Shown: positions 7,625-64,000 of the stretch, one piece after another
Layout: each line of letters starts with the position of its first letter
How positions within the stretch are numbered: the stretch's first letter is position 1
Source: Parelaphostrongylus tenuis
Taxonomy: Eukaryota > Nematoda > Chromadorea > Rhabditida > Metastrongylidae
Direction: 5' to 3'
DNA: 64,000 nt
NCBI GenBank assembly: GCA_019055375.1
Contig: JAHQIW010000630.1
Location: 122,674 to 186,673, forward strand
Position numbers and translations under genes: made by a program
The notes under the pieces: generated by a model
What the model was told of the DNA's origin: nothing
Databases searched by the model: none
What the model saw: only the letters and a program-made list of their open reading frames with translations

Positions 7625-7745
7625 ATCCTGTGGGGGGGGTCACTGACTAGGAGGCCGAAACCTCCGAAACACCCGTGTATGGCCCTGGCGTACCAACCTC
7701 GTTTAGGCTTTAGACATTCTTTTTTTTTGGAATTATTTTGAACGT
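7625..7745 (+). repeat. Short repeat carrying a hammerhead-like motif (family 1, copy 1)
   Basis: About 120 bp that closely match 10655-10775: the same tgtggggcggggg-type start, hammerhead core, ctggcgtaccaacctcg segment and T-rich end (ttttttttgga). No coding potential. The two copies are in the same orientation about 3 kb apart. Confidence 0.7.
7637..7685 (+). ncRNA. Hammerhead ribozyme-like motif, type I, probably inactive (G8 changed)
   Basis: Stem I GGGUCA (7637-7642) pairs with UGGCCC (7680-7685). The core reads CUGACUA (7643-7649), so catalytic position 8 is U instead of G. Stem II is GGAGG/CCTCC (7650-7654/7661-7665), GAAA is at 7666-7669, stem III is a tiny CAC/GUG hairpin, and the predicted cleavage site is after UA at 7679. 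The G8 change should abolish cleavage. Confidence 0.65.
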
Positions 7746-10160
7746 TTATTGCAAGGTTTCAAAAACAGTCGATCTTGTAGATCGATTTCTCTAAAGTTCA
7801 TCATTCTATGATTTTTTTTCTATCCCTCTTAATGAATCTCCATATTGTCGCAATTTTTCCATCCCATTAACTCACGGCGTTCTAAATACGATTCTGTTAC
7901 GGTAACAATGTTTTAAACCACGTTTTTCACGTTATTCATGAAACATCACTAACAGTAGTAAATAATACGGTTACCAGGGCTTTTGACCCATTATTCCAAC
8001 CTTCATGTTCCGCACTCAACTCTACCCATCTGTTCGCTAATATCAATCATGAGCAATATTTGCTATTTCCAAATTTATTATTATGGAGTTGTCTAGTCAT
8101 TCTCATGATACGTAATTTAGAAACCTTCCCTACCATGAGTTACTTAAACGACTCTCAGTTCTCATATTCATCAATACTTTCTCGCATTATTATTTTTCTT
8201 ATGAAAAGTGACATTTATAGGTTACGTAATGAATAGGGAGTAATCGCTAATAACACCTATAGGCGACACATTTTCAAACGTGGCTCATTTTTTGCCCTGA
8301 AGCTTTTTTCCTTGACATCTTGTAATTAATTACTCGCTTGTCCAGCTTAGATGAAGTAGAAGCGTCAACTCACGTAAAATGTTTTACTGATAAGTTCTCT
8401 CTTAATTTCTCATTTTCGGTGTACGGTTGAGAGTACGTGGATAGTGAAGAAGTAATTCCCAGGATCGACAATCGATTGCCTCATATGTACCAAGCATGGG
8501 AGAAGTATAGAACATATAGCGCACATATGGGAAAAGTAGTGCAGTTCTAGAAACCGAAAAAAACCGGCTTTTATAGCGGAAGTCATAGTACTAGGGAGAC
8601 AGGTCAACATAAAAACTGTCAATGTGGCCGTTGCGACATTCACTGGTGTCACAGTGAACGCAGCAAAACTGCTCCGCAACAAAACCGAATTCAGGCGTCG
8701 ACGGGAGAGTGTTGATCTAGGGCTAGATTATAGAACCTTTGTTTGGGCAACGTTTTGACGCCATCCCTTTCATCACAGCCGCGATGCTTCTCAATCCAAA
8801 TTTACTAAGTTTCATTCGGCCCACTAATATTGCACTACAAGCAGTTCTCTCAAATGATCTGTATACATGAGCTTTCAAGAAGTATTTTGGTGTTTGTCAG
8901 CTAAGATTTCGATGACTTCGATTTCGTTATATTTCTTTTTATTTCTGAAGTAGTGAGATTAGTTCTATGTCATTTACCTAAGCTGAGGAACCTTTCAAAT
9001 TCCTTACATTCAACTCCCAATTCACAAATGCTTGTACTTAAGAGTGCAATTGTGTATCCATGGAGCTTCAAATTGCACTAGATGTTCACACGACTTGTTG
9101 TCATATTTCTACGAATCTATACCCAAAATACCAATGATAATTCTTGTAGTATTGCTTTCACAAAAGACAATTCGAACAGTTCTTTCCCCTACTCTCTTTC
9201 TGCATCCTCTATCATTGAGGTGTACATCTCGTTGCATTGCAGTGTTTCAACTTATGATATCACTAACTCGACTCTATTATTTATGTCTAATTCCCTATTG
9301 GATTCCCCAGTCATTTATTATCGTTTGAATCGTGTGTTTTTTAAAACACGAACACTTCAGAGTACTTTAACTTTTAATTGCTACCTTTACTTCTTCGTGC
9401 CAAGCAGTAATGCGAAATATAACTAGAAGAGGTGGGATATGAGCAAAAATTAGAACCTCTCGTGAATTTTGGGTTCGCGATTACCATTGACAAGACCCAC
9501 GTCTTTTCCACTACACCGACCGAGTCCCCTGATTTAACATGTTCTCAGTCATATTGAAGCTCTACCTCAGCATTTCGCTATCACTGAGAAAAGAAGGAAA
9601 CCTAATATTTTATTATTCCTCTAGTTATTGCTTATTGTTATTTTTATTCTTATTATTAATTCTTAATCCTGTAGCTGCATGACGTTTTAAATTGTAGTAA
9701 ATGTGGAGAAAACCTATTTACGCGTATTTCTTGAGAGCTCTCCAAACAATAGAAGGAGATCCTTCGCAGTGACTTTTTATTAGGAATCCAAACTTGACAT
9801 GAGGAACAGGTCAATTCAAGAGAGGGTCTACCTATTTTTTGAGGGATGTCGACTCAGTACTCAGTATGTGCTGACGTAATGCTTTTGCGTTTGCGCATTA
9901 AATCGCTGGCTCAAAGGAGAAGGCACATGGTGGTAGATTTCTTCTGAGTATGGCTTCCTTTGGCAATATGAGCTTGATAATGAACATCAACTATTTTGAA
10001 CATATCTCATCCAATGGGAACGAATGTTTGCGAAATGGAACTGAACAAACAAAGCAAGAAATCGGTTAGGAATTTATTATGAGAACAAAGAGTACTCATG
10101 ACCATCAGCTTCGCTCTAAATGTCGCACATGATAGCATTCTGGTGCAGAAATGACAATCT
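7746..10160. other. AT-rich stretch without a recognisable gene
   Basis: Open frames of up to 114 codons occur at 9032-9426, but their composition is that of chance frames in T-rich DNA and no domain or splice structure was recognised. Confidence 0.4.
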
Positions 10161-10164
10161 TAAT

Positions 10165-10600
10165 CTTTTAGGGGTCTGCAAAAAGTGCGTCGGCATGCCA
10201 TTTACTCAAGTGTGAAGTTCTTTGCTTTGCATCTGATTTGAGTGGGACCCGTGCTGACTAGCCCTTTGATGGATTGACAGTGTGTTGATCTACCCGTGAG
10301 GTACCTGGAAATAGTAAGTCGGTGTGCCCTTCATTCAAGTGGAAAGTTCATTGGTCTGCCACTGCTTCAAGTGGAAACTAGGCAGACTAGCCCTCATTGA
10401 AGCAAAAGTGTGTTGATTTGCCTCTGAGGTACTTAGAAAAACTGAGTCGTGCCCTTCATACAAGTCGGAAGTTCATTGGCCTGCCTACGATTCAAGTGGA
10501 AACTAGGCAGATTAGCCCTCATTGAAGCAAAAGTGTGTTGATCTGCCTTTGAGGTACGTGGAAATACTGAGTCGTGCCCTTCATACAAGCCCTTCATTCA
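10165..10600 (+). repeat. Tandem repeat, period about 124-130 bp
   Basis: At least three imperfect units. The landmark gtgtgttgat recurs at about 10279, 10409 and 10533, each followed by ctgaggtac-like sequence and a tcaagtgg block. Related, more degenerate units are at 11725-12200. No coding function is apparent. Confidence 0.75.
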
Positions 10601-10654
10601 TTGAACACTATGCCATCACCACTTACTACATTCGCCTCCCTCCTTGCTACAATG

Positions 10655-10775
10655 CAGGGCTTGATGTGGGGCGGGGGTCACTGACGAGGAGGACGAGCCT
10701 CCGAAACACCGGTGTATGGCCCTGGCGTACCAACCTCGTTTTAGGCTGAAAACATTCCTTTTTTTTGGATTTGAT
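10655..10775 (+). repeat. Short repeat carrying an intact hammerhead motif (family 1, copy 2)
   Basis: Same family as 7625-7745. It lies directly downstream of the tandem repeat at 10165-10600 and ends in the same T-rich stretch. The repeat is too short to encode anything; its only recognisable content is the ribozyme fold. Confidence 0.7.
10675..10722 (+). ncRNA. Hammerhead ribozyme, type I, all core bases conserved
   Basis: All elements of a hammerhead are present in order. Stem I 5' strand GGGUCA is 10675-10680 and the core CUGACGA is 10681-10687. Stem II is GGAGG/CCTCC (10688-10692/10698-10702) with a 5-nt loop. GAAA is at 10703-10706, followed by a minimal stem III CACCGGUG (10707-10714). 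U715-A716 gives predicted cleavage after 10716. The stem I 3' strand UGGCCC (10717-10722) pairs fully with the 5' strand, one pair being a G-U wobble, and a seventh G-U pair is possible. Being open at stem I with a 2-4 bp stem III makes it type I; in known type I hammerheads with such short stem III, two copies may have to pair to cleave. Activity is inferred, not shown. Confidence 0.8.
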
Positions 10776-14049: not shown

Positions 14050-14235
14050 CTTCACCGTAAGTCAAGTGTAGAAGTTTCGTAGTCGATTCCTCTATGTAAA
14101 GGTAGGTCCTCGAGGAAGTGACTGAACGAAAAGGCAGCGCGCAACTAACGAGGCCGAAAAGCCGAAACGCATGTCTTGCACTAGATAAGTGCCCATATCA
14201 GACCTCATCAAAGGCTCAAAATGCGTTGTTAGATT
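14050..14235 (+). repeat. Hammerhead-bearing repeat, family 2, single arm
   Basis: Shares gaggaagtgactgaacgaaa, aggcc/gccgaaac and ataagtgcccat phrases with 29930-30225 and, reversed, with 22040-22150. A facing arm is not visible here. Confidence 0.6.
14141..14179 (+). ncRNA. Hammerhead-like motif, family 2, G5 changed
   Basis: Stem I GCAA (14141-14144) pairs with UUGC (14176-14179). The core is CUAACGA, so position 5 is A instead of G. Stem II is GGC/GCC around a 6-nt loop and GAAA is at 14164-14167. The cleavage triplet ends in UC at 14174-14175. The G5 change should inactivate it. Confidence 0.55.
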
Positions 14236-14373
14236 ATCGCATAAGTGATTAAATAGATCATAACTTTCATTTCGAGTGTTTTCTTAAGACCACAGCTCAA
14301 AATTCAATATGCCTTGCAGTCACTTTTGAGCCACGCATGTCAGTGGTCTTTGAAGGAGGGCTGACTTCTAGAG

Positions 14374-14410
14374 CCCGATACACGTGTTTTGATCTTGCGA
14401 TCTCGTCATA
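14374..14410 (-). ncRNA. Hammerhead-like motif, family 3, left arm, degenerate
   Basis: Minus strand: AUGACGA in place of CUGACGA, stem II GAUC/GAUC with a GCAA loop, AAAA in place of GAAA, stem III CACGUG, then UA and UCGGGC. Two core changes and the loss of the stem I partner make it inactive. Confidence 0.5.
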
Positions 14411-14413
14411 AGT

Positions 14414-14456
14414 GCCCGACTAACCAGATCGCAAGATCGAAACACGTGTATCGGGC
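14414..14456 (+). ncRNA. Hammerhead-like motif, family 3, right arm, core changed
   Basis: Stem I GCCCGA (14414-14419) pairs perfectly with UCGGGC (14451-14456). Stem II is GAUC/GAUC with a GCAA tetraloop, GAAA is at 14439-14442, stem III is CACGUG, and UA is at 14449-14450. The core is CUAACCA (G5 to A, G8 to C), so the fold is kept but the catalytic bases are lost. Confidence 0.6.
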
Positions 14457-14804
14457 TCTATGAGTCAGCCTTCCTTAAACAGGCCACTGACATGCGTGGC
14501 TCAAAAATGATTGCAAGGCTGATCAAATAGATATTTCACCTATACAAAAACGCTGATGGGCTTGTATAAAATTGATGCTGCTTCTCTCCCAGACAAATAT
14601 GATGTCATCTTGTCATTCCCGGAGGGTTAAAGGGCTTGTCGACTTAAAACACAGGATCAAACTATGGGAATGCCCTATAATTTCATTCGCACTATCGTCT
14701 TATTCAGTTTTTTCTTACTAAGTAACTGAAAATCTGTTTTGATTACGCTCAGTTATGCTTTACGAATATAAATCAGAGAGAATGTGAGAAAGACGACTGG
14801 AAGA

Positions 14805-15729: not shown

Positions 15730-18700
15730 GTGGGCACTGAAGACGTTCTTCGTTGGTCGCCGGTTGTTTGGTTATTGGGTGTTTGTGTAGCCGGTACACT
15801 TATGAATTTGGTATTTTACTGTCAAAAGAAATATCGAGAACGAAAGAGAAGACGACGAGATCAGCAGGTAATGATGACGAATACTAATAAACACAAGCTT
15901 ACTAAGGACTATTCATTGCAGTGGAAAAAATGGACTACTTCATAGCGATATGTTACAGGAAAAATTACTAGCAATATTGATTTGTTTCTCTGCGTTTCAC
16001 TTTGTAAATTTCCTTTACTAGACATCCGAGGTTGGATATCTTAGCTAAGCCACCACTTTGTCGATAATTATTGGCTCATTGCCAACCAGGCTGTAATGCT
16101 ACTTCCCATTTGGAAACGATTTCCGAAAAAATGTCCCCAAAAATTATGAATTTGCAAAATTGCAATGCTGAAAAACTCAGGTCAACTCTTTGTTTTACTG
16201 CTTTTTCAAATGTGTTACGGTGCTGTAAATATACATTTATGAATTTTTGCTATAAAATGGGGTTCAGTGAGGGACGTGTGGCTCTGATGTGGCGGGGGTA
16301 TCGCCGAAACGTAAGTAAGCCACGGACGTATCCCCATCGATAAGGCTTCAAACTTTATCACAGACTGTACTGAATGTTTATAACGAGGTTAAATAGCAGT
16401 TGATTGAAGGGACATCTAAGAATGTTGAGTGGTAGGCAAAGCATTCGATCACAAGCAGTAGTTGAACCCGCTTTTGCACCCTTAATGGGCAGCGTGCTAT
16501 CACTATACCGAAAAGGCCACCGCTCTGCTATCACTCCCTCTACCTCTAGTTTATTCCGAAGAAAGCATCATCATACAATACTATAACATTATTGAAGAAG
16601 CAGCAAAATGAAGATTCATGTAGAGTACTTTCGGTTATAAGTTATAAGTTATATCATAATTTCTGTTTCATAGCGCTGCACGAGAAAGAAAAAGTTTGTG
16701 TTTTGCACCCCAACGGACAGAGCTCTTTCTGTAGTTTATTAGTAATCAATCGATAGCATTAGTTTCGATGATTCCAACGCTGTGCTTATTTTCTGGAAAG
16801 ACCGCTTCGCTGCAGTGTAGCAAGGAAAATAAGATCAAGTTTCACATATTCGGCAGCTTGTTTACCGGCTAACCTACAGGAGGGGGCGGAGAGGAGGGAG
16901 GGGGGGGGGGGGAGGACGACCGATTGATGACCTGACATGTATTCATTTATTCCCTTATGACCGAGAAGTTCCCATGTAGATTTTGCGTTTCCAGTAGCTG
17001 TGAGCATAATTAGTTTTTAATGCTATATGTGTCTACAAGAGTTTGAATCCGTTAGGTTGGTTGCTGACAGCTAAGATGGCTAACACTGACAAATGAGAGC
17101 AAAAAAGGGAAGACCCGGGTGGTATAGTGGTAGCTGGTATCGCCGACATGGGTGAAACGCAGGTTCATCTCCCGCCTGTGGTCGAATCTTTTGCATATGA
17201 TCATCATTGTTAACTGAAAAATTCGCCAATCACTGTCCTGCGTTGAAGAAGATCTTCGTTTGTGAAGTGTATTGACTTTGATATTTAACGCACTATTAAA
17301 GGAAACTAAGCGTTCAGTTCTTCAGATTTTGATTAAGGCAAGTCGAATACACTTGCAGATTGTTTTTGGAAACTCAGAACTTCAAGTGAGAAGAAATCTC
17401 ATCGAATATTGTAATGAAATTCTTCCAAAATTTCTTCACTCATGATATCTGCTATACAGTCGTATTTCCCACTTTCTATGCGTACTTTTCTTTTATACTA
17501 CAAGTACGTTCCTGTTTTCTTGTCTTGGTTGAAAACGATCATCGCTGATTTACAGCACGACTTATTGTACTCGCTGGCGATTCCAAGATCTTATCCGTGT
17601 TTGGCACCTCCTCCTCATCTGGGTTGTTGTCGATCAACTCAAGTCTCTGTTTCTAATCGTGGCCTACCTTCTTATGAGGATGTTGTCACACAGAAGTTGG
17701 AGGTGAGCTTAACATTCGCGTTTCAAGAGGTTTAATTTGGTATACTTTTCATTTCTGTAGAAATCTGTGGTGTAAAGTATACTTACATACGAGCTTGAAT
17801 AGTTGGACGGTCCGTTTTCGGATTTGCGCGGACCCCGGTACATTTCCATTCGTTTCTTCTTCTTGCGATAGTCGTCCATGGTGGTGAATTGATTAGAGCA
17901 TGGCGGCTGGCGCGAGTTCCATACCGTGATCGGTGAACTGTCGACAGGTGCGAGTACAGCTGATTACATCTCCTACAAACACGTCCGCCCAATGTACGGG
18001 TGTTCGTCCTCGGGGTCGGGTGTAGCCACGCAGAGTCCCCTCTATGGTTCGTTTTGCCTATCTGTCACCTGATCTTCTTACTATATGACCGGCCCCTCTG
18101 TGTTTCGCTATCAACGTTAATTCTTCTGGATGACGAAGATGAGACGAATTCCGGATATCTGAGCTGCGCAAGCCGGCTAGATGTTGTGAGCGCCGACTAA
18201 ATCTTAGAAGACATCGTTCGAGTGTTCTGAGTTGTTTGCAGTAGTCTTGACGTGGTCGAGATATCAGCCCACGTCTCTGTCGCATAACAGAGCGCTTGGA
18301 AGACTGTCGAATCAAAAAGGTGAGCGTGGAGCTTGGGTCCGCTTTCTGGTCGGTGGCTTCCTTCGTAACTTTTTTTATCTCTAAGCTCTACTTTCTCGTA
18401 TTCATGAGAAACCGTAGTAACAATATGTGAAAGCAGATTTTCTTTCATAGTTATTGTTTCACAGCAAAATAACGTATAAAAATACTATGAAAAGAATGAA
18501 GTTAATAATACCATGACGTCTATCACCATCGAAGCCTGAAGTTTCTGGTCCTCTACGTAACGATTCTTCTACCTAAATTTTTTGGCCGTAATCAATCTAT
18601 TCTTTCATTCAATAATCTCAGTCTTTCTCTGAAGGCAGTGCATATCGGAGGATCGATGCTCGTCGACCACCAATTTGGTTTCCATACCGACTAATGATTT

Positions 18701-19183: not shown

Positions 19184-22039
19184 CTTTACATAGTGTTTCC
19201 ATTGTTTTCTAGTAAGAACAACAGAAGTCTGAAGAAGATCTGAAAGCCGTTGACTCAGCAGTCCTAGCCGACTTTTCAGTTCACATCATAGAAGATACCT
19301 CTTTTCTTCTTTCTATGCTTTATGTGGCACATATCCTTTAACTCTATTGATACCACCTCTTCCTTCATCACTTCCCTTGATGTTTCGATAATCAATAATT
19401 GTTTGTTAGCTTATGAAAGATGAGCTGGTATACTCGCTGCCTTTGAGATCATGATTTTTTTCACTTCAAAGACTTCGATGTACATATGATATGTCCTTGA
19501 TTGATGTCACATTATCTAAGTGCACTTCGACAATTTCCAAAGTGTTCGTATTGTTTAGTTCCTCATTTGCCAATTTCTGTTCACTTATTAACGGGTCTGA
19601 AAGTGGTTTTCCGAAAAAATTTTCCCTTCAATGTAAACGCATTATCGTCATCAGAGACTACTATTCAGCAAATTTATGAAACTTGCTCATGTACGAAGAC
19701 TGAACAGATCAAACTGAGTGGTTATCCTATTATGGAAGTTATGCCTCTCGTGAACAAGGGGAATCCAATGAACATAGAGAACAATGTTGAGAAGGGACTA
19801 CTCAGAAAGCAGCGGTGCTTGATGTGTTCACGCTTATCACAGAAGTTCTCAATCAATCGACAGACCCAGAACCCTGTGCACATTTTCTAAGCCAATATTT
19901 CTCTCATTACGCTCGCAGGTCGTCTCATATTAGAATTTATGAGAAAAGAAAGAGTATAGATAAAGCGAAGCATAATTAGGCAGGTAGTGTAATGTGTGAT
20001 TGGTCGATAGAGGACGAAAAGAACAACAGAATGAGTTCCAATATGATACAAGCGTACTTTAGGGCAACTTCTCATAAAACGGGCGAGAGTATATGTGACC
20101 GAATTATGTAGATTGTGCTAACAACTGGAGGCGCTATATAAACTAGAGGATGACAACACTAGTATATGTTCCATGTTGAAATGAGACTATCATCATAAGT
20201 AACAATGGCGAGAAAAAAAAATTATAACTCAATGTTCCTTCTGATGAGCAGAAGCGAGTGTTATCAGTAGGATTTAATTAAATACAATTCAAGAGAGAAT
20301 TCCATTTGATACCGTTATACAATGGCTAATATTTCGGCAATACACCCTTCTTAAGAGCTTGGGATAGTCAATTTAATCCTTTCACGCCGCCGCTGATAGA
20401 AACAGCGTCGTGTTGATGCTCGCGTGACATTCGACGCCATTAACCTTCAGACGAGGCACGTTGTTTTCACAATGTGTTATAGTTTCTTTAAAATTCGGGC
20501 TTTTGTCGTCACTAAGGGGATTTATGATCAGTAAATGGTGGAATATTATAGAAGCGACTTCATAAGGGTATTTTTATTGAGACATGTCAAAGCAATAAGT
20601 AATGAATTGTTTGCACAAATGATATTGCACATTGCATGCGACGACACATTATCGATAAATCGGAATAACTTTATATTATTATTAATGTACTTTAGGTACT
20701 GGAACACTAGAAAGTAGTGGAAGAGGCTTGTTCTATTGGCTTATGAGTAATAACCTTTATATATCCACTTATACTCATTTATGAACACTTTTTATCGCTG
20801 TAAACCTGGAAGGAACACCAATGCTTTCTTTAGAACCCCGAATTTTGAAGGGGAAAATCAGATGCTTACGAAGAAGTCGTACTTCGAACTGTTGTTGAGA
20901 ATTTATATGTTATTTTATTTGTATTTCTTCATATTTCATTTATATTTTCTCCTATTTCTTATGTCAGGAAAATTTCCGTTTATTCATTGTCATAGATGAA
21001 TGAATAGCCTAATAATCTATTAGTCTATCATTCTGCCCCTCTGAAATCCAATATTGCGACATAAATCTTCCTGTTTTGATATCTTATAATTCCATACCAT
21101 AGCCCAAAGTTGTCATAGTATTTAAACATTGGAAAATTATTATGGTTTGTCATGAACGATGATGCTCAGTGCATGCGATTACACATCGATAACTTTCAAC
21201 AACTTGCAAAATATTAGTGTATTTCACGAGCTGAGACCTTGTAGAACAGATTTCTTTTGCTGCCGTTCTATTAATGTGAGTATTGCTATGATTTATTTAC
21301 TCTATGCCAAGAACATTATTGATTGCGGAGAATTTTGCCACTGGATATACGTACCAATTTTACGTCCTCATTTGATTTGAAAAACACGGAATCCTTTCTA
21401 CTAAAAATATGTGTAGAAAATACCCCTTAGGAAAGATGTATCCTTCTGTAGCGATAAAATTTTGTAAGAAACGAAATTTTTCATATATAATACTACGAAA
21501 TCCACTGTGAAGATGAAACAAAGCGTTCCGAGAACAAAACGCAATTTTCAAATCATTACTGGAACAAACTATGAAATCTGTTGAGCAAACGAAACGCAGT
21601 ACTAGTCTAGTGAAAAAGCTTCTTCCCCGAAAACATGAGTGCATTCCACACAACTCGTAATGAGAAGTGGGGATTTTAACAGAAATACTGGGCGTTTTTT
21701 TCTCTAAATTTACGTCTGTATGAGTCTAACCGATAACATTTTCCTTTTCTGTATGGAAAAATTGCCCCAAATCAAAATTTGACAATATAATTTTTTTTTC
21801 GAAAATCGCTGTGAAATTGAAAAAATAAATTCCTAACGTAAGTTATCGTTCTCGTTAGTAAAAACAAAGTATGAAGATCGTTTCACCAAACCAAGCTAAT
21901 GCCAAGATAGCATTACTCGAGCCTATCGAAGAAATTCAAAACAAACATAAAAAAGGAAAACAAAAGGTATCTATAAGAAAATCCCCTCCAATGGCCATCG
22001 AGACCCGCTCAAAAACAAATAGAAGCGATAACATACTCT

Positions 22040-22150
22040 AAACCTTATGAGGTCTGTTACGCACTTAAGTTGTGTGTCAGACACGTGATTTCGGCCTACA
22101 ACATCTTCAGTTGCACAATGCCTTTTTCGTTCAGTAAGTCTCGGCGACAT
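22040..22150 (-). repeat. Hammerhead-bearing repeat, family 2, single arm
   Basis: Reverse orientation relative to 14050-14235, sharing cctttttcgttcag, cacgtg and the ggtctgttacgcactta outer part. Confidence 0.55.
22070..22116 (-). ncRNA. Hammerhead-like motif, family 2, core kept but stems weak
   Basis: Minus strand: CUGAAGA (22110-22104), GAAA and a UC cleavage dinucleotide are present. Stem II is poorly paired, and the stem I strands (GUGCAA against UGACAC) match only in part. Probably a decayed copy. Confidence 0.45.
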
Positions 22151-25100
22151 ATTCCCTTCATTCTTTGCGAAACGTGAGGGTCATTATGACCCTCAGCTGG
22201 GCGCGTTCAGTTACGAAGAGTGGTGCGTGCTCCATACAAATTCGTGTGATTTTATCAAAGAAAATTTATCAGCAAAAAACGATTAAATATCAAAAGACTC
22301 TGTCAAATGATTCTGCAAGACTAACGCTAAGGTTCTCATGATTCATAATATTAAGCTTGCTGTTAGAAAACACATAGTACGTTCTAATGATAAAGGAAGA
22401 TGATGTTTGCAATGGCAATTAAATTTTGGCTAATCACAGCAGATTTTTGGGATTATATATAGATTTCAATTCTTAAAACTTTTCTTGCCGAAAAAAAACT
22501 TGAAATTCCATTGGTAGAACTTTACAGACGTCATTTCTGAAAATAATAACGACCTAACTCGTCTTGAAAATCCTTACTCATGAAAACAATTTCTGTCACA
22601 TGCAATTGCATTCTGGGAATTGCGCCTCGTAAGTCCTTGGTTTTTCTAGGAAAAGACCCTATTCAACTACATTACTAGTGTTTATTCGATAGCTCGAATG
22701 AAGTGAATTGAACGGGGCAAGTTGTTCTAAATGGTTTTTTTGCGCTGCACAGCCAAATAAAAATTTTTGTTTCACATTTAGGGATTCCCTACGGATAAAG
22801 TTTTTCTATAGGACAATTAATACCATTCAGATAGTGCAAATCTCAGCGAGTTTAAAAACGAGTTGTTTTTGGAGGAACCCCCTTAGAGCAGCTGTGACAG
22901 CAAAGAGGATGGGCCTAGCTTTCCAAAGTGTGTGATTTGCGGACATTGGGCTCCAAGTCACTGTGCTGTAGCAAAACATCAAACTAACGTGAACTGTAAT
23001 CTTCTCTTTAAATGCTACCGCACAATAAGAGTTCTTTGGAGAAATAGAAACAAAGTTACATGGAAATCCGCGAGATTTCAAGCTATCGGAGAACATTAAA
23101 AGTCCAGCGGAAAAGCTTCCTTCAGTGGGAAATGTTTGAGTGTAAAATATTTCAATTTACTGTCAGAGCGCATTAAGGAATCCATTCAAAAATAGCAAAG
23201 ATACTTTTAAGAATTTCAAAATTCTACAACTATCAAATGGCTATTGTAACTCCGGAAAAATCCCCCCCAAAAAACCGATTTTTCCCAAGAGGTCAAAATA
23301 GGAAGTGTACTTTGAAGATAATCCGATGTCCGAAATCTAATTTTACTTGACTAGTAGGAGCACTCCGAGAAAGTCTTTTAAAACCAAAGTAAATCGTTCG
23401 AATTTATTGCATACGCCCTATCTAATGATTATTAGTTGCTTATGAAAACCTTTATCGGGCGAGAATCGCTGAAAGTGAACAAAATCGTCTTTCGAGTGTT
23501 ACAGCGAAGAAACAGGCCATTTAGGAATAAAATACATCACTCAAATTCACCTGATCTAAGCTCATCAATCCACTACTAAAACGTGTCTGATAAAATGAAG
23601 ATACGAGTCTAGAAAAGAGTTCCTAGATATAACAGGAAGGAACCGCTTATGCCTCCATCTTTACTTCCATTTCAATGGCTATAAATATGAATTCGAACGA
23701 AATTGCGCATTGACTGAAAAATGGGAAGAATAGCTGCACTAACAATCAAAAAAATATTGAGAATTATCGATGAAGTAGGATCGCATGCACTAAGCAGCAC
23801 TATTTTTGACGAACCCTTCATTGTTTTCCAATTTTCAGTTGGATATAATGAATTTTATGCACTTTATGCAGTAAAATACTCGAAAACTGAATGAAATAGA
23901 AGACAAATTTGACTCAGTTCTTGATGAATATAAGTAAAGTATGGTAAAAATGTTCGATAAAGCTTCTAAATATGGCCATTTTATAAGTACTTGATATTTT
24001 CCTTTGAAAGTGTGGATTATGAATGGAAACAATTACGTTATTTCTAATAAAAATAACATTATTGAAGTCTGTTTAATCATACTTGACCATTTAGTGACAC
24101 AGAAAACCCACTTATTGACGAAATAAGTATGAATTTCATTAGGAAACTACTACATTAGCCTTGTAGCAGGCGCCGGCAGTCTCTCTTCGTAGCCGTCCGA
24201 GCCGCCCGCCAGCCAAAATGGCGCCGTTGGCAAAGGTATATAGAGGAATCGACGACGAACATTTCACATTCAATAAACGGTGAAATGATCACCGTAGCGC
24301 TTCGCCACAGTGGTTGATTGTCGATTGTATAGCGTACGGCTGTTACGTGGGCACATGTAACAAAACCTTTCAATCCACTCAGAATATATTCTTAGGTGAT
24401 AGTTTTCAGCGAGGTCTACCACTAATGGTGAACTCTGTTCATGTTACACTTTGCTAGACTGCTAAATTTTTACGCATTTGAAGACTTACGAATACATTTC
24501 GTAGTCGCAGCAGATTTTGCCTATATTGGTGGACTTACTGCTTGAGATCCTTTTTTGTCTCGGTCTTTTGTTAAGCTTCGCAAGTTTCGAGATAATTCAA
24601 ACTAGGCTACAGGTCTTGTTGTTCTGTTTGGTAGCAATGGCTGGCTTAAGAAGACCTGCCTATTGCAATCCCTTCTAAACCCTTGAATTTCCTAGTCCTA
24701 TGATAAATATATGAAATGAGCCAATGAATAAGTGAAATGAGTCATTAATGTTCTCAATAAAAGTGCCCTCCAAAAGTCATCCAGACGTAAGAAATCATAC
24801 TTTATACTGGCTCCGTTGATAGTATGCTCCGTGTGGATTGCTTCGAATTTGTTTCTTCTTTCAAGTAAGATAAATCATTACAAAAGAAGCACACGAAGTT
24901 CCAGTTCAGTGCTGAACTCTGCTATAACAGCGATGTCGCTGAGTTTGATCATTCTCTGAATAAAATGTGAAGGAATATCGTTACGCTACTCTGCACCAGA
25001 AAATTCCGGCGTACATTATCGAAAGGACAATAAGGAACAGTGAATTCCCGTAGACTTTTTTTATCTTGGGTAATCTTGATAAATCAAGACCGTTTGTACA

Positions 25101-36606: not shown

Positions 36607-36703
36607 ACGCGCTACACTAAACCATACTTTATGAGAGAAATTCGGAGACATGAACAAGTAACGTTTCCATCTCTATTAAGATGTAGGGTTCAGTGTAGCG
36701 CGT

Positions 36704-36749
36704 GGCCTACTGATGAAGCAGGCGACACCGCCGAAACGACGTATGGCTC
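36704..36749 (+). ncRNA. Hammerhead motif, family 4, right arm, core conserved
   Basis: CUGAUGA (36710-36716) and GAAA (36733-36736) are intact. GUA at 36741-36743 marks the cleavage site. Stem II is the GGCG/CGCC pair with a short unpaired AGCA. Stem I is weaker than in the left arm, with a C-C mismatch. It could be active or need help from a second copy. Confidence 0.6.
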
Positions 36750-36790
36750 TAACGTAGCAGCTTCGAAAATGCTCTGAGCATCTCACAGAC

Positions 36791-40939: not shown

Positions 40940-41235
40940 CAGGACTGTCATTAACAGTGCAATAGTTTAAGGATTTGAGTCCAAGTGAACAGAGTTTGGG
41001 TTCTTTGTTAAGTTTCGCGCCGACAACACTACTTGATAGTCCGCAATCATTTTGTCCAGCTTCATGACAACGCAAGGGTGCATGTGACCAAACTGGTGAA
41101 AAGGAAGTTGATCGAACTTTGTTGGGAGTTGCTGGATCATCCGCCTTAAAGTCCTGACTTGTCGTCTGACTATCACCTCTTTCGTCCGTTGCAGCACTTC
41201 CCAAACAAGAAGTTCCGAGACAACAGTTATTACAA
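40940..41235 (+). pseudogene. Mariner transposase C-terminal fragment
   Basis: The plus strand reads LHDNARVHVTKLV (near 41050), then WELLDHPP, a stop, SPDLSSDYHLFRPLQHF, in the order of the mariner HDNARPH and PPYSPDLxPxDYHLF blocks. The third catalytic Asp (in HDNAR) is kept, but the frame has stops. It is immediately followed by a hammerhead-bearing repeat. Confidence 0.8.
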
Positions 41236-41290
41236 CTGATAATTATTTTTTAGCCAACATATCATGTAGTCTTTGAAGGGCAACTAATAG

Positions 41291-41335
41291 AGCCCAATAC
41301 ACGTGTTTCGGCCTCAACAGCCTGATCAGTCAGAC
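41291..41335 (-). ncRNA. Hammerhead-like motif, family 3, first tandem unit (G8 changed)
   Basis: Minus strand: stem I GUCUGA pairs with UUGGGC using G-U wobbles. The core is CUGAUCA (G8 to C). Stem II is GGC/GCC, GAAA is intact, stem III is CACGUG, and the site is UA. Inactive by sequence. Confidence 0.6.
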
Positions 41336-41600
41336 AGTACCTTTCGATTTAGCCACTCCTCTCGGCAATCCCTACATCCACCTATGTAAAGTGGGCGACG
41401 ACAAACGATTTACACATGCCCTCAAATGAAATAACTCACAAGATCGTCAGTGTTTTCCTATCGATTGCTTTTGGCTAGTATTTCTTAAATATCACACCGT
41501 TAGTTCCAAATGCTCTTTTTGAGATCACGCCCAAAATTCAATATATGTGATAAGTATTTTTGGGCCAACATGTCATGTGGTCATTATGGGCGACTTATGG

Positions 41601-41645
41601 AGCCCGATACACGTATCCCGGCCTTGACGGCCTTGACATCAATCA
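41601..41645 (-). ncRNA. Hammerhead remnant, family 3, second tandem unit
   Basis: Minus strand: only stem II (GGCC/GGCC), the ACGUGUA segment and UCGGGC remain. CUGAUGA is UUGAUGU and GAAA is GGGA. Confidence 0.4.
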
Positions 41646-44635: not shown

Positions 44636-47418
44636 TAATAGTAGTCACTCACTGTCACCTCAGCTCTTGCATTTTCAATAAGAACGGAACCATCAGCTTT
44701 CAGCACCTTCAGCGCAGGTATCGTTGGTACTTCATACTTCTCGAGGAACTCTCTAAAAACGAAATAAACTTGTATAAAGCCATAAGTTATCGCTGTAATA
44801 AGCAGAAGAGCGGTGAGATACAAGCAAAACTTGGAATCTGAGGTGACTTCAAATCCGTGACTGTCCTTTCCCACCGCTCAGCAGATTGCGACTTCAATCA
44901 CGGCTTCAGCATGACTGGAGTTCGTTTCTGTCTGTTTCCTAGATCATTTCCATTGGCGCGTTATTGCTAACAACCACCGATTAGGTCGAAACACGGATGA
45001 GAGCAAAACAAAGAAAAGGACTTGATAATGCAGAAGAAAAATTGATGAGCTTCGCAAAGGGTAGTCAGGTGTTCGAAGTCACCTCAGATTCGAAGTCTTG
45101 CTGGTGCTGGTATCTCAGCACTCTTATGATTATATTTCACACTGTATTATGTTCCTAATAATGAATTCGGCAAAAAAATAAAGTCAAAATATTGTTTTAG
45201 TGCTATGCTAAAACAGTTATTTTTACTCCACCATTCTTCTCAAACTTAGTTCATCACAAAGTAGTGAAGAATTATAAGGTGCTCTGAGAAGAATGGAGAG
45301 GATGTAGTCAAAAAAAAATGTGAAAACAGCATCATGACTTCAACATCGAGTAGTTGCGTTCTATTCGAAACATGATTCGTCTTGAAATAAGTCACCATTC
45401 TATTCAGGTGGAACTTTTGCATAGTGCTAAACTGTAATATACAGCTGGGCTTCACCACGACAAGGTCACTCGAGCTGATAAGATGCCCGATATTCCCCAC
45501 CATGGCACCCAACTAAAAGTACGCTTGTCGATCATTCTTCGAGCCACGTTTGTGAACTGTCATAGGGGAACTTATAGAGCCGGATACATGCGCTTCGACT
45601 TTTACAGTCCTCATCAGTTGGGCGGTACCCATTGTCTATTGTCAATCTTCTCGGCGTGCTCCAGTCCCCCATAATAAGAGTAGGCGAAGGCGAGTAGGCG
45701 AAATGATTATCAGGCAAATTGAAATTTGAGCGCGGTCTCAAGAAAACACCCGAAACGAAAGGTATGATTAATGATACCAGCCAAGGGAATTCGAGTGTAC
45801 ACTTTACATTCAGTGATAACTTCACTTGATGGATCGTGTAAAATATTCGTCATCGCCTATTCTTGGTATGGGGGACTGGAGCACCACGAGAGGATTGCCA
45901 AAAGACGAAGGCCGCCCGACTGATGAGACCGTCAAAGTCGAAAGACGTGTACTCGGCTCTATAAATTGCCCTATGACAGACCACATGCGTGGCTCAAAAA
46001 AATCATTATCATGCATATTGAAATTTAGGCGTGGTCTTAAGAAAACACTCGAAACGAAAGGTATGATAGAAGTATGCTTTTCAGAGACAAAAGTCTGTAG
46101 TTTCCTATAAACTCCTCATTGCCAATGACAATGAAAGATTAGAAGATCACAGAATGAGTTCGATGCTGTTCTATGCATTCTACAGTCCAATAGAACACAG
46201 TAAGCGGCTCTCGTGTGCAATATCTTAAATGGTATTTATTAGCCGATATGGGTACATTGATGATTGACGTAAAAATATATAACATTTGTGATTCATCTAT
46301 TTTAAACAAATGACTGTTTTTTGATTAGGACGATGGTGTATATCAGATTAAAGCTCATTTCCCTCAAGAAAAAAAAAGCCCTACTTGATTCTGTCGTCTC
46401 CAAATGGAATTCCTAACCAACCTCCACAATGCTCGGTTAAATACTCCTAAACGGATTCTATTAGTTCTCATATGTGGTTCACATTGATGATCTGACGCTA
46501 TCGCCTTAAACTCACTTTTAGATCCTCTTCTTCGCGATCACGTGACACCAAAATAATCTCGAACTCTTTACCACCATCTTTAAGTGCCTTGTAGAATCGC
46601 TAAGACATACATAATCTGATTTACTTTTCTTGTAGGATTTGTTTATACTTGCAGGAATCACCCATTCAACGATTTCACTTGGAGTCAATCTCATATTGAT
46701 TACCCAGTGAATTTAACATAGACGACATCATAAGGTAATTAGAAATGAAAAATCCGCAAACCGCTCAATCACTTACAGTTAATTTCGGCGTGAACTGACG
46801 GCATTGAGGACACCACATGGCGGAAAAATAGAGCGCTATCATCTGCAAAAGAACTCAAGCAGAATACGGCAAGCAATGTTAAGCAACGAAAAAGATCCTA
46901 TTCAAAACGTCTCCTAATCCTTTTAGTTTACAATCCTTCATTTAAATAAGCATTGTATAACTGAGAGCGAGGCTTATTACAAATCAATCGCCAAAAAACT
47001 AATATGTAGACTATTCTCTACCGTATAAGAGTAGCCCCCATTTTACCATCGGTCCCGTGTATAAAGTACGCACACCTTTCAATATAATTTGCTGTTATCA
47101 TATAAGCATTTAAATTTCGAATTACGTGATCCAAATCGTAAGCGGTGAACCCGAAGTAAAGAAGCAATCAAAACACAAAGTAACCAGCACACAATGTAAA
47201 AATTTTAGGATTTTAACCAAATAAAACATTTGATTTTACGTCAAAGCATGGCAGTAATAACAGAAACTTTGATTTAAAAGCTCAGCAAACAGACTCTTCT
47301 TATGAAGCCTTTGAATGAAAAATTCATTCCAAAGAAATACCTTTCCTTTGAGAGCTTTTTCTGCATCGATTTCAGAACCATCGGGACCGAGCAATGGCTT
47401 TCCAGCAAACAATTCCAT
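44636..47418 (-). CDS. Thioredoxin-fold, nucleoredoxin-like protein (five exons seen, 3' end uncertain)
   Basis: Minus-strand exons are 47418-47341, 46842-46777, 46599-46516, 46446-46385 and 44752-44653, all with GT/AG borders and matching phases. The product starts MELFAGKPLLGPDGSEIDAE. Exon 2 has ALYFSAMWCPQCRQFTPKL, the redox-active CxxC of tryparedoxin/nucleoredoxin-like proteins, usually CPPC. Exon 3 has EFEIILVSRDREEEDLK, exon 4 GGWLGIPFGDDRI, and exon 5 KYEVPTIPALKVLKADG with the cis-proline after TI. Such proteins are cytosolic or nuclear thiol-disulphide oxidoreductases; the substrate here is unknown. Either exon 5 splices on (ACA/GTGAGT) to a final exon I cannot find, or it reads through to a stop at 44636, which would leave the family's last helix short. 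The ATG directly follows a TTTTAG acceptor, consistent with trans-splicing. Intron 4 carries a pair of ribozyme repeats. Confidence 0.85.
45577..45623 (-). ncRNA. Hammerhead-like motif, family 3, left unit
   Basis: Minus strand: CUGAUGA intact (45617-45611), stem II GACU/AGUC with one extra G, GAAG instead of GAAA, GUA cleavage site. Stem I (GCCCAA against UCCGGC) is mismatched. Probably weak or inactive. Confidence 0.5.
45914..45957 (+). ncRNA. Hammerhead motif, family 3, right unit, core conserved
   Basis: CUGAUGA (45920-45926), stem II GAC/GUC (45927-45929/45937-45939) and GAAA (45940-45943) are intact. Stem III GACGUG has one mismatch and UA is at 45950-45951. Stem I GCCCGA faces CUCGGC, which pairs only if shifted by one base. 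The core is complete, but stem I has begun to decay. Confidence 0.6.
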
Positions 47419-48670: not shown

Positions 48671-48951
48671 TGTTAAACCTTTCGTTTCGAGTGTTTTCAT
48701 AAAACCACGCCCCAATTCATTATGCCTGCATTTTTTAAGCCATGCATGTGGTCTGTTATAGAGCAACTTTTAGAGCCCGATTCACGTGTTTCGACCTTGA
48801 CAGTGTCTCCACAGTCGGGCGGTACCCTTTGTCTCCTTTAGCCAATCCTCTCGGGGAACTCAGCCCCGCATATAGTGTTGGCAAAGACGAACATTCTACA
48901 CCTTCCATCAAGTGAAAGTCTCACTGAATGGGCAGTGTTGTACAGTCGATT
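48671..48951 (-). mobile_element. Complete 281-bp family 3 hammerhead element inserted in an RTE copy
   Basis: Begins tgttaaacctttcgtttcga and ends gttgtacagtcgatt. GGTAT stands on both sides (48666-48670 and 48952-48956), a possible 5-bp target duplication, and RTE sequence lies on both sides. It contains the outer motif ttcgagtgttttc, ggtctgttatagagcaac, one hammerhead motif and a body of about 130 bp with no coding frame. It is the best available outline of a monomer. Confidence 0.7.
48774..48820 (-). ncRNA. Hammerhead-like motif, family 3, degenerate core
   Basis: Minus strand: stem I GCCCGA/UCGGGC is perfect, and GAAA and CACGUG are kept. The CUGAUGA segment is replaced by CUGUGGAGA with extra bases, and U16.1 is A. 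Inactive. Confidence 0.5.
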
Positions 48952-48956
48952 GGTAT

Positions 48957-55400: not shown

Positions 55401-58300
55401 AGCATATACGAACACATATGGAGTCATCAAGATAAAATTGAAATGGATTCACTGAACAAAACGTGAAATAACATTATCTGAAGTGATACGATCACACAGC
55501 CATATTGAAGTATTGCAGCTTATGCTTAGAAGTGGCATCCGTAGTAGCTCATCAAAAGTATTAGATAAGCAAACACCCTGAACAATAAGTTGCCATCGGA
55601 ACTATCAGAACTCGGCTGCCTTATAATAGAAGCCACGTACAAGCAGCAAAATGCACAGGATATCAAGATGCAAGGCAATCACATCGCATGCCTCGTGACA
55701 GAAAGCGTTTTACGAACGTTTCATAAAATCCGCAAAACATGCCTTTCACAAAGTTTTGTAAAAAAGTTCCAGTGTAGACGGAGTTAGAAACCACTTACAG
55801 CAGAAGTCGAGGTCAAACGAGCCCTGCTAACAAGAACTACTTAATAGAACTGTATTTGAGATCATCTAAAGTCAGCAGTATCCGAATAGTTCTTGAAAAT
55901 CACACAAAAGGCACACCATGTTTTTTTTGACCATGGACACAGCAATCTTAATTTATGGGCCAATCGAATCTCGGATTACATGGAAAATCGGTTACATAGT
56001 GAAATTAAAACAATCAGATTTGCCTCAAGGGCGGACGTCAGACTGACAAACAAACGAATCGTCAAAAGATCTGCCAACTTATTAATTTCGTCGCACCTAG
56101 GAGAAATCAAGAAGCAAAAGAAACTAGATACAGGAGGGAAGAAATATTCATCAAATGAACATCTGAAAGACGCTGAGCAAAACCAGAAGCACCGCTATGC
56201 TTTTGACGAAAAAACACTAACGGTTATCTTTATGAATTGGTCAAATCGCTGAAAAAATCGAAGTATTTGCCTCGCACAATCGGAATTAGGCGTCATGTCC
56301 ATTATTGCGCTATAAGCAGCCGTACAAGTGAGATATTGGGAAGCATAGGCGATTAAAAAATACGAATTACGACGATCGCGATACGAAGAATCGTGGAAAA
56401 CGGGTTGCTAAACTATAAAATTCAATTACATTATTCGGTATCAAAAAAGATATTGAAGCACACGTTCAGTGATAGCAGCAGGTCAAAAAGGACCAGAATA
56501 GACCGGATATGGACCCACGTACAGTGATCCGTTTGGCACATGACAAGACGCAGTAGTTCAAACAACAATTGAGATCAGTCTTGAACCAATAAAAGCCTCT
56601 ACTAATACTGAATACGACCAAATATGCATGCGTGAAGAATTAGTATGCAAGTGTTCGGCCGGAACGTGCACTGGCTTCGAAGCAGGAGAAGCATATTGGA
56701 GCATCGTACAAATTAGTGGATGCTCACCCCATCGTCATGTCGTAGTTTATGAAGGGCTAGCAATGATCCTCAACAATCCCACGCAGATCCCTTGCCAGCA
56801 CACATAATAACACGCATACAGTCAAACAGAACGATAAAGTATCCGTCTACGTCGCACCTGTTCTTACAAGGATGTGCTATACCAGCACAGACAACAGAAT
56901 GCTCAAGACTAATAGCATATCAGTCCGACTCTCTCTGAACCACAGCATGGACAAGGAAATGCAAAATTTTTATAACGAAACTGATATTTTCTTCGGTTCT
57001 TTCGACTTGACTTGACTTCGATTTTTTATTTCTGGTATTTTAGTTAATATTAAACGGGTATTCAGATATGGTACTATATGTACGTCTAAGCTCTGACAAA
57101 GCAGGGGCGCCGAAACGTTACACATCAAATTTTGAGAAAGGAGAAGTGCCAACCTCGTGAGAGCTGTAATTAAAGAAAAGGATAGCTCAAGGACTGATAA
57201 TAGCTCATCGTTAAGAAAGAGAGTTTTTCCTTAAAAAATCAAAGATATCCCCTTTATATCCGACTCAGTTCAAGGTAACACAAAACTCGTTTATTTTGAC
57301 AACACCTAGATTCGAAATCTTAATGATCTAAGGAGAAGACCTGAATCAGAGAGATAAGGAATGGATCGACGTACACGTGAAACACTGTTAACAATCGCAC
57401 AGATGAGTTTGCGTACTTATAAATGGTGTGGGCATTATCACCAACGTAATTTTTAGTTCAATTGCATATCCAACTACCCCATGGGCGACGTCACAATACG
57501 TGGGAGCACAGCTGTTATTTATAATGTCTGGCGTATGGCAAACAACAATCTAAAGTCATGCTTCCACAGAGCTATTGCTCTAGGAGGAATATATTACAGG
57601 TGGAAGCAGAGGCAATGATTACCACATCTATTTCTTCTCAACCAAATTACTCGAAATTTTGGCTCAAGTTATTACACAGTACAGCAGGGATTCAACCTTT
57701 CAACAGGACCACTACTCAAGCTGAAAAGAAGCCAGGAAAGCCCAGCCAAAGAGTAAACTGTACCAGAAATGACCACCCTCTTGGTGGCTATAAGTCGCAA
57801 AGTGGCTATTCCTTCTGATCTATAAGGGTCGGGTGACTGCTGTAATGTGGTGGCCACCAGAGTTAGCGCACGCTAGGCTTACCTCGGGACTCCAGAGAAC
57901 AAAGCTGCTAAACCAGTACAATTTTCCTATGCTGGGACCTGCACTATCAGTGCGAGACGGGCTGTTCAACTACCCAAGCAACGCTTGATTGGACAGAGCT
58001 TCTGTTGTCGTCGCATCTAAACGCGACCCCCACGTAAACGGGAAAGATCCAGGGCCCCAGATCTTCCGCTCATGTCTGCACAATCAGTTAGATATCGTCA
58101 GATTGCTTATATTGTATTGTTATTATTGCTATGAACATTTAAAACTCAAAAATAAAACTGTGCTCCGTGCCTAAGGTAGAAAACCTTCGTGGCATTCCTG
58201 TGCAAATTCGAGCATTCTACTTCGAGTTAGTAATTATTTTGCTAACCCGTACTCTACACTTTAATGCACCAACTACTGCAAATTGCAACAGTTACGTCTA
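52420..58300 (+). mobile_element. Degenerate BEL/Pao-like LTR retrotransposon remnant
   Basis: Two diverged direct repeats (about 52440-52680 and 58060-58290) share ttgcttata-tgtattgttat, attctacttcgagttag and ctctacactttaatgca phrases and look like LTRs, the second with an aataaaactgtgctc polyadenylation-like stretch. Between them, 52740-52990 holds gag-like frames (VELNAQRNKLIDDATTLLS), and about 55250-55330 reads EIVDVSLDSGVNQLFI, a retropepsin-like DSG site in BEL-style context. No clear reverse transcriptase or integrase could be read, and stops are frequent. The assignment is tentative. Long foldback DNA (53510-54920) is nested inside. Confidence 0.4.
53510..54920. repeat. Large inverted repeat (arms about 450 bp) nested in the LTR element
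   Basis: The segment at 53580-54030 (agagctctttctctagacta, aatcatctgatatcattatg, caaggaaaataagaacgac, caggctattcgataaggt) is repeated inverted at 54480-54900. The spacer (54130-54430) holds a further direct copy of the outer part (cattcgaaagctcag / cattcaaaagctgac). The same dispersed family occurs at 300-800, 11190-11300 and 16660-16830. Confidence 0.7.
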
Positions 58301-63330: not shown

Positions 63331-63389
63331 TGATCCTTTCATTACTATTTGAGCCAACAGTCATATGGTCTGGCAAGGGCTCTTATGCA

Positions 63390-63429
63390 GCCCGATACAC
63401 TTTCGCCCTTACAGACTCGTCATTCGGGC
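63390..63429 (-). ncRNA. Hammerhead-like motif, family 3, left arm (C3 changed)
   Basis: Minus strand: stem I GCCCGA/UCGGGC perfect; core AUGACGA (C3 to A); stem II GUC/GGC; GAAA present; stem III shortened by a 3-base deletion; UA site present. Inactive by sequence. Confidence 0.55.
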
Positions 63430-63854
63430 AGAACCCGTCGTCCTTCAATCTTTTTAATAATCAGTTTCTCTCGGGAGCCTGCACTACCTATAGAGAGATT
63501 TCGAAGACGAACGTTCTACACTCTATGTCAAGTGAATTTTTACCTACCACAGAGTTTTGTACACTAGATTGCTCTTTGGCTCGCATTTTATCATATTATA
63601 CCTTTATTTCGAGTGTTTTATTAAGATCACGATAAAATATCAACAGATTAAAAAGATGTCTTAATAAAACACTCGAAAGAAAGGTAACATTATAAAAAAT
63701 ACCACCCAAAGAGCAATCGAGTGTACACACTCTGTGTTAGGTGGAAATTTCGCTTAAAATAGAGTGTAAACTGTTCGTCTTCGATATCTCTGTGCAGGGA
63801 GAGCAGGCTCCCGAGAGAACTGACTAATAAAAAGGTCGAAAGACGACGGGTTCT

Positions 63855-63896
63855 GCTCGACTGACGAGTCTGAAGGACGAAACACGTGTATCGGGC
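63855..63896 (+). ncRNA. Hammerhead ribozyme, family 3, right arm, all core bases conserved
   Basis: Stem I GCUCGA (63855-63860) pairs fully with UCGGGC (63891-63896, one G-U). CUGACGA is 63861-63867. Stem II is GUC/GAC (63868-63870/63876-63878) with a UGAAG loop. GAAA is 63879-63882, stem III is the self-complementary CACGUG (63883-63888), and U889-A890 sets cleavage after 63890. With a six-base self-complementary stem III, two molecules could pair there to form the dimer form known for minimal type I hammerheads. Confidence 0.75.
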
Positions 63897-64000
63897 TGTA
63901 CAAGAGCCCTTACCAGACCACATGACATGTTGGCTCAAATAATAATAAAAGGATCTATTGAAGTTTGGCGTGGCCTCGATAAAACACTCGAAATTAAGGT

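Follow-up and report, generated by a model that had tools for sequence, protein, structure and literature searches.

Small non-coding hammerhead repeats with Penelope-like end geometry in the genome of the nematode Parelaphostrongylus tenuis

What are some eighteen hammerhead-like motifs doing in 64 kb of nematode DNA? The stretch that raises the question, hereafter the window, comprises 64,000 nt of a Parelaphostrongylus tenuis contig (JAHQIW010000630.1, forward-strand positions 122,674 to 186,673, assembly GCA_019055375.1), and the assembly searched for relatives of its repeats spans 481.5 Mb in 5105 contigs. A sequence-only reading had proposed that the window carries a dispersed system of about eighteen type I hammerhead ribozymes (HHRs). 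The self-cutting RNA motifs are genuine, and most are decayed copies of small non-coding mobile elements. The sites are probably copies or relics of non-coding retroelements that carry a type I HHR and fall into two groups of families (A/E and B/C/D), moved in trans by Penelope-like elements (PLEs), and at least family B is apparently an internally deleted PLE. The tie between small ribozyme repeats and the insertion geometry of PLEs is, within the literature covered, the new part; HHRs in PLEs and in retrozymes are already known.

By direct reading, HHR sequences or their relics are present at all 18 of the listed sites. A covariance model trained on 38 A/E HHRs and run unfiltered, with rough E-values, matched 17 of the 18 at E<=0.08, and 16278 only at E=9.9; its training rows included window sites 63855, 45914, 41291, 14141, 29971 and 3070, and the other 13 listed sites lay outside the training. 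The weakest of the matched sites were 22070 (E 0.054) and 36704 (0.078), similar to the unlisted 61679 (0.059), and both have family relatives despite their weak scores. The Rfam type I model (RF00163) gave one window match, at 63855, with 28.9 bits against a gathering score of 34, and at least 31 genome-wide, 20 of them above the gathering score (best 74 of 119,811 candidates scored). Under a strict HHR descriptor, with 20 dinucleotide shuffles of the window as control, motifs were commoner than chance: two with an intact core and four with one mismatch, against shuffle means of 0 and 0.2. Motifs with two mismatches showed no excess (one in the window, shuffle mean 1.95). A relaxed pattern was abandoned because it gave many false matches, and a further list of motifs holds 72 distinct parses out of 87, some plainly false.

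The figure of about eighteen therefore stands for motifs and relics and falls for ribozymes, of which only two, 10675 and 63855, are probably competent. These alone have an intact core under the strict descriptor (CUGANGA, GAAA, three helices and an open stem I), and most other window sites show substitutions or lost pairing. The core letters are kept and pairing is impaired at 36704 (four extra nt before stem II), 45914 and 22070; the remaining listed sites carry core substitutions. Nine sites lie on the minus strand (14374, 22070, 29971, 36560, 41291, 41601, 45577, 48774 and 63390). Two further motifs had been overlooked, an HHR at 3070-3112 on the minus strand (E 1.2e-12, a training row of the covariance model) and a PLE-type relic near 57093. 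The type I plan with minimal or palindromic stem III held up, as did the nematode host and the description of the motifs as dispersed, non-coding and retrozyme-like; for a reverse transcriptase (RT) open reading frame (ORF) in the window, the best named relatives come from Angiostrongylus, Ancylostoma, Haemonchus and Necator, which makes a strongylid host very probable.

Self-comparison pairs many of the sites as inverted repeats. Where at least four families with unlike flanks had been proposed, the sites resolve into two groups. The A/E group contains 13 listed sites, with 22070 placed by pairwise match only. The second comprises family B (7637, 10675), C (36560, 36704) and D (16278), joined via a B-like copy in locus L063, the link to D being weak (E 0.001 over 28 nt). 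A family A profile, representing the 299-nt unit at 45769-46067 by 29 distinct copies from the genome, matched 17 stretches of the window, two of them weakly (E ~0.003), and none in the reversed window. The window elements are as follows, with the evidence for each in brackets.

10675..10722, plus strand: family B HHR with intact core and stem III CACCGGTG, in a ~150-nt truncated piece of the ~273-275-nt monomer (descriptor, covariance model, cofold).
7637..7685, plus strand: family B HHR relic, core CTGACTA for CTGANGA (self-comparison, descriptor, covariance model).
63341..63578, minus strand: family A, the left of two head-to-head arms, with an HHR relic at 63390-63429 (self-comparison, A profile, covariance model).
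63699..63997, plus strand: family A right arm whose HHR, at 63855-63896, is intact and has the stem III CACGTG (Rfam, descriptor, A profile, covariance model).
45506..45695, minus strand: family A left arm, HHR relic at 45579-45623, 3' end ~79 nt past the cut (short end) (A profile, covariance model).
45701..45767, plus strand: family A 5' "tail" copy, a direct repeat of 46000-46067, 88% identical (self-comparison, A profile).
45771..46066, plus strand: family A right arm, the query unit; HHR at 45914-45957 with core kept and stems I/III impaired, 3' end ~114 nt past the cut (direct reading, A profile).
41221..41481, minus strand: family A copy, HHR at 41292-41335 with one core substitution, in tandem with 41493-41638 (self-comparison, descriptor, A profile).
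41493..41638, minus strand: family A second tandem copy, 5'-truncated inside its HHR (41602-41650) (self-comparison, A profile, covariance model).
48674..48955, minus strand: family A single arm, HHR relic at 48775-48820 (A profile, covariance model).
14065..14294, plus strand: family E/A arm, HHR relic at 14139-14181 (self-comparison, A profile, covariance model).
14258..14408, minus strand: family A, one of two head-to-head arms, with an HHR relic at 14373-14415 (self-comparison, A profile, covariance model).
14413..14523, plus strand: family A partner arm, HHR relic at 14414-14456 (self-comparison, A profile, covariance model).
29898..30037, minus strand: family E arm, HHR relic at 29971-30013 (self-comparison, A profile, covariance model).
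30062..30228, plus strand: family E partner arm, HHR relic at 30137-30179 (self-comparison, A profile, covariance model).
3008..3252, minus strand: family E/A copy, HHR at 3070-3112 (A profile, covariance model).
22006..22157, minus strand: family E-like copy, HHR relic at 22074-22116 (pairwise E 4.5e-5 to 29907-30055, covariance E=0.054; unmatched by the A profile).
36535..36775, both strands: family C palindromic element with two head-to-head HHRs, 36560-36606 on the minus strand and 36704-36749 on the plus strand (self-comparison, genome copies, covariance model).
16278..16323, plus strand: family D HHR, core CTGATGT, stem I of 6 bp (direct reading, descriptor; covariance model only E=9.9).
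5368..6956, plus strand: decayed PLE coding region that runs from RT to GIY-YIG and is broken up over three frames, its pieces 29-56% identical to the protein of PLE L068 (E 3.4e-20, 4.4e-11).
57093..57117, plus strand: PLE-type minimal HHR relic (looser HHR pattern).

Beyond the window the families are abundant, and the counts for A, B and C are lower bounds, as the best 40 candidates were scored per family: at least 70 matches for A (of 4,887 candidates), 44 for B (of 1,131) and 48 for C (of 648). The C copies are 74-89% identical, query aside. For B, 39 full-length non-query copies are 96-98% identical, which marks the best B copies as young; most copies in the window itself, by contrast, are old. 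The B monomer of 273-275 nt is non-coding, with a GC content of 46%, and has the size (~170-400 nt), tandem arrangement and type I HHR of a retrozyme, with up to about four copies at 273-275-nt spacing in locus L072. In that array (162-1219) the two middle monomers share variants that the outer ones lack, which is hard to explain from a single circular template alone.

The head-to-head pairing of many sites as arms of single insertions had gone unseen in the sequence-only reading, and it is part of the insertion geometry that these repeats share with PLEs. Genome copies of A (30 loci, L009-L038, beside the eight loci L001-L008 of subfamily A'') typically consist of a 5'-truncated inverted arm, a ~70-nt direct copy of the tail and a full unit, or of two head-to-head arms. 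Head-to-head arms recur genome-wide in A and B, and family C has eight minus-then-plus pairs besides the window's own (best 40 of 648 candidates). Units of family B form direct tandems with a spacing of 273-275 nt, and larger multiples and head-to-head arrangements also occur. All five enclosed B insertions, among 18 loci, have direct repeats of 10, 11, 12, 12 and 14 bp around the whole composite, against a mean of 4.9 for swapped flanks, of which 1% reached 8 or more; a single duplication around the whole shows that the composite is one insertion, at least in B. Flanks of A share words of at least 7 in nine of 30 loci, compared with 7.7% of 300 swapped pairs, indicating that most A copies lack a target duplication. 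Both families thus show an inverted head-to-head arm, an optional tail and a duplication of ~8-14 bp, the last in a minority of A loci.

The 3' ends fall at two preferred distances from the cleavage site. Among 60 HHR-bearing A arms (L009-L038, near-copies L028-L030 unmerged), 23 end 49-79 nt past the cut, 34 at 101-114 nt and three elsewhere, and 15 of the 17 loci with two opposite HHR-bearing arms combine a short with a long end; the A loci were picked by full-length match, so that one long end is built in. The A profile stops 115 nt past the cut, and in a wider alignment similarity ends there too. Ends of B, delimited by BLAST, lie at 59-69 nt (eight ends) and 97-121 nt (12 ends), and all four fully enclosed head-to-head pairs have one short (63-69) and one long (97-109 nt) end, though the query fell short of the long end.

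Autonomous PLEs of the same genome end in the same way. PLE L068 has an 893-codon frame from stop to stop with RVT_1 and GIY-YIG domains; its protein has 103 relatives, including proteins of hookworms, Haemonchus and other nematodes, and that of PLE L069 is 92% identical to it. L068 lies head to head with a truncated inverted copy (99.8% identical), with a tail and a 12 bp duplication, and its aligned ends fall 67 and 113 nt past the HHR cut; the duplication overlaps these ends, so that true ends of 60-67 and 110-113 are possible. L069 has direct pseudo-long terminal repeats (pLTRs) and an 11 bp duplication beside its end, in a locally repetitive flank where the same word recurs further out. 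Past the PLE HHR, similarity to L068 ends at 50-75 nt in 13 of 21 copies, at 108-114 nt in four and at 18, 132 and 133 nt in three; the 21 include the reference itself, and one of the four long-end copies, being an upstream pLTR, does not mark the end of an insertion. The descriptor scan had overlooked these minimal HHRs, which a looser pattern revealed: they sit 3' of the ORF in 17 of 20 GIY-YIG loci, and the genome holds 1,110 exact copies against none for the reversed pattern.

PLE coding sequence is also plentiful, with GIY-YIG matches in at least 150 places (best 150 of 1,723 candidates), in frames of up to 902 aa and often as minus/plus pairs. Many similar PLE copies have long open frames (L068, L069 and the GIY-YIG places), which suggests recent PLE activity. 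Of 45 PLE proteins listed, 14 start with MPRF or MPRL (in one case behind an initial S), and in most of these a ..[ED].RTW-like stretch comes next; many of the others are truncated. PLEs as the likely driver had not been considered earlier; the PLE relic at 5368-6956 lies just outside the range then covered. No long PLE frame was seen by eye in nine stretches of 9-10 kb around HHR loci; a later comparison turned up fragmentary PLE sequence in L041, L042 and L044, and the A'' locus L008, which overlaps L041, has PLE pieces. A PLE is a single ORF with telomerase-like RT and GIY-YIG, as in L068 and L069, and units of 273-299 nt such as A and B have none; families A-E are not classed as PLEs because that ORF is missing.

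Pair counts for the ribozymes themselves were made on alignment A2 (38 A/E rows, pre-filtered for pairing) and on the unfiltered A3, which covers 28 of the 30 A loci (L029 and L030 being omitted as copies of L028); alignment A1 was left out because stem I of A'' is out of register in it. The filtered rows have 23 cells changed on both sides of a pair, compared with 8.4 in shuffles (none of 500 as high), and one stem II pair appears as A-U in 26 rows, G-C in 10, U-A in one and G-U in one. Over 27 distinct unfiltered rows, six two-sided cells compare with 2.0 in shuffles (4/500). The number of pairs with two-sided change showed no such excess in the filtered rows (6 against 4.4; 78/500), nor did the number of pair types in the unfiltered ones (229/500). 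The proposal that structure is conserved over sequence is thus borne out in A/E by the both-sided changes, and not by any excess of pair types. Among HHRs within six edits of the intact form, 32 of 35 keep the core (18 B loci from the best-scoring matches), and the B monomer as a linear strand is more stable than its shuffles (z -4.85, 0/200). Several families have a self-complementary stem III (CACGTG, CACCGGTG, CAGGCGCCTG), and in cofolding two copies form a double hammerhead with shared stem III for four of seven motifs (B 10675, B 7637, A L024 and A'' L004). The ribozymes probably cut as dimers, as modelled in this way.

Family B (which includes L070-L073) also resembles PLEs in a short stretch of sequence. 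Copies L070 and L071 carry, 71-73 nt past the cut, a 24-nt stretch (ATGACGAG...) that matches the start-codon region of L068 at 73, and shuffles score as high in 3 of 2000 cases for L070 and 44 of 2000 for L071. The tails of A and B match each other with none of 2000 shuffles as high; the tail regions for these tests were picked after the match was noticed. Family B looks like a PLE with an internal deletion.

Several observations weigh against this interpretation. The match between the A tail and the PLE tail is not significant (339/2000), and over the whole stretch from cut to end the comparisons reach only 45/1000 for B-PLE, 68/1000 for A-PLE and 8/1000 for A-B. Where the putative start codon should be, L072 and L073 read ATA in place of ATG. 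No A or B unit was found flanking an intact PLE ORF. The window copies lack a duplication, the longest shared word being 5 in five elements, and the 5' ends differ: 9 nt past the cut in L068, mostly ~44-48 nt in A (model 233-237) and scattered in B. For A 63855, C 36704 and D 16278 the cofold minimum is a structure other than a double hammerhead, and it is dimer cleavage and circular RNA, together with the PLE that acts, that we infer. The motif GCT(N0-2)AAA, found 20-76 nt past the cut in 11 of 12 HHR representatives (shuffle mean 1.1, maximum 5) and after a small hairpin in seven of 12 (0.9 in shuffles), was framed post hoc on families that are partly related.

A mechanism consistent with these features would run as follows. 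The element would be transcribed; two hammerheads may then join at the self-complementary stem III, and their cleavage would release unit-length RNA, perhaps to be circularised. A PLE protein with RT and GIY-YIG endonuclease would cut both target strands ~10-14 bp apart and, judging from the ends, start reverse transcription ~65 or ~105-113 nt past the cleavage site, often once per strand. The two cDNAs would join by their 5' ends in the centre, leaving a head-to-head pair between duplications with a ~45-nt tail on one arm only. More tentatively, and we would sooner doubt this than accept it, the HHR may serve as a positional landmark, the PLE RT docking on the folded ribozyme and starting ~65 or ~110 nt downstream largely regardless of sequence. 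If so, any RNA with a dimerising hammerhead at the right distance could be copied, and retrozymes would amount to minimal substrates for a PLE, with circular RNA as the template; this would settle both what moves metazoan retrozymes and why PLEs keep their HHRs.

Other origins can be weighed against movement in trans by PLEs. The families could be what several autonomous PLE lineages, each once equipped with coding copies of its own, have left behind as pLTRs and truncated relics; no separate non-autonomous population would then exist. PLE insertions are frequently 5'-truncated and solo pLTRs are known (PMC3846280, available text), several PLE lineages are present in the genome (pieces ~29-58% identical to the L068 protein), and the window holds a PLE relic. 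The B repeats, however, are complete tandem monomers of ~273-275 nt that leave no space for an RT, in 39 copies 96-98% identical (best 40 of 1,131), the tail of family A is repeated directly against the start of the unit, and PLE coding pieces lie within 1.5 kb of just five of 30 A loci, four of them (L027-L030) related copies and the fifth L036. This origin is accordingly unlikely, though the most probable of the rivals. An enrichment of PLEs near A loci was rejected for the same paucity of cases, L028-L030 being near-copies and L027 sharing PLE pieces at 82-85% identity.

It is less probable still that these are retrozymes replicating as circular RNA and inserted by a long interspersed nuclear element (LINE), such as the RTE-like elements of the window, and not by a PLE. 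The 273-nt monomer, tandem arrays, type I HHR and stable linear fold agree with metazoan retrozymes (PMC7229834, available text), and RTE-like pieces adjoin two window copies of A, but an RTE lies within 1.5 kb of only one of 38 loci (30 of them A), L021, in opposite orientation, L038 matching only the stretch beside the RTE, and the double end positions and head-to-head arms agree with PLE copies of the same genome. An RTE-like LINE as host of the HHR unit was rejected on the same count and because the junctions differ between the two adjoining copies. Inverted repeats between short duplications would also suit miniature inverted-repeat transposable elements (MITEs) with hammerheads in their terminal repeats by chance; such DNA transposons have equal inverted repeats and a duplication of fixed length, and the unequal arm ends, direct tandem multimers and duplications varying from 10 to 14 bp make them very improbable here. 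Chance matches to a short motif have next to no probability and are refuted for the families, given the excess of intact and one-mismatch classes over shuffles, the covariation and the homologous copies genome-wide, although the two-mismatch class is no commoner than in shuffles and single weak sites such as 61679 could still be chance.

The window contains further repeats. Palindromic or inverted repeats away from the listed HHRs lie at 33881-34979, 4385-4875, 32863-33182 and 53486-55009, with self-matches of up to 1136 bp, and may be foldback or MITE-like elements. A fragment of an RTE-like non-LTR retrotransposon is present in three copies, ~83% identical (26961-27580, 41780-42579 and 48964-49709). 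Matches to microRNA families were dismissed: all were below gathering scores, one overlapping the family C palindrome and the others in an AT-rich stretch.

How, then, do these repeats compare with known systems? Hammerheads in PLE pseudo-LTRs were reportedly described by Cervera and de la Pena in 2014 and by Lunse et al. in 2017. That PLEs move or give rise to retrozymes has already been proposed in print (PMC7229834, PMC11722881; available text), and published work leaves open the cellular role of PLE hammerheads (PMC11167929). Retrozyme-like elements with PLE end geometry were not described in the literature searched, outside which most subscription journals fall, so that their absence from print is not established. 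Judged against the available text of PMC7229834, an exceptional density of motifs at this locus is unsupported, and it is the link from repeats to PLE geometry, rather than density, that is worth pursuing. A genome that holds both recent-looking autonomous PLEs and recent-looking non-coding HHR elements with the same ends makes the role of the PLE hammerhead and the mover of retrozymes both testable.

The newt satellite hammerhead (PMC6155905, available text) likewise has a weak stem III and is expected to cleave when an extended stem III is formed jointly by two copies; its host is another one, and the likeness is one of design. Metazoan non-LTR retrozymes, as far as the available text of PMC7229834 describes them, resemble family B in being non-coding, with a type I HHR, a length of 273-275 nt, tandem copies, a GC content of 46%, a stable fold and duplications of more than 4 bp; unlike them, the arms here stand head to head with PLE end geometry, and B is known from DNA only. 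From PLEs the families differ in that A-E are non-coding and that A and B have a palindromic stem III, a feature absent from the minimal HHR of this genome's PLEs. The Penelope of Adineta vaga has inverted pLTRs head to head, an optional 31-bp tail on one arm and duplications of 8-10 bp (PMC3846280, available text), which the head-to-head arms, one-arm tail and short duplications recall. The Anolis element PAc, a lizard PLE whose terminal region contains an HHR, partly explains this plan: in vitro it cleaves both strands and extends them, and its reverse transcription begins at an internal position of the RNA, past the HHR (PMC11167929), as the ends of the nematode copies suggest here. That these small repeats and the autonomous PLEs beside them share one plan gives structural support, within one genome, to the proposed link between PLEs and retrozymes.

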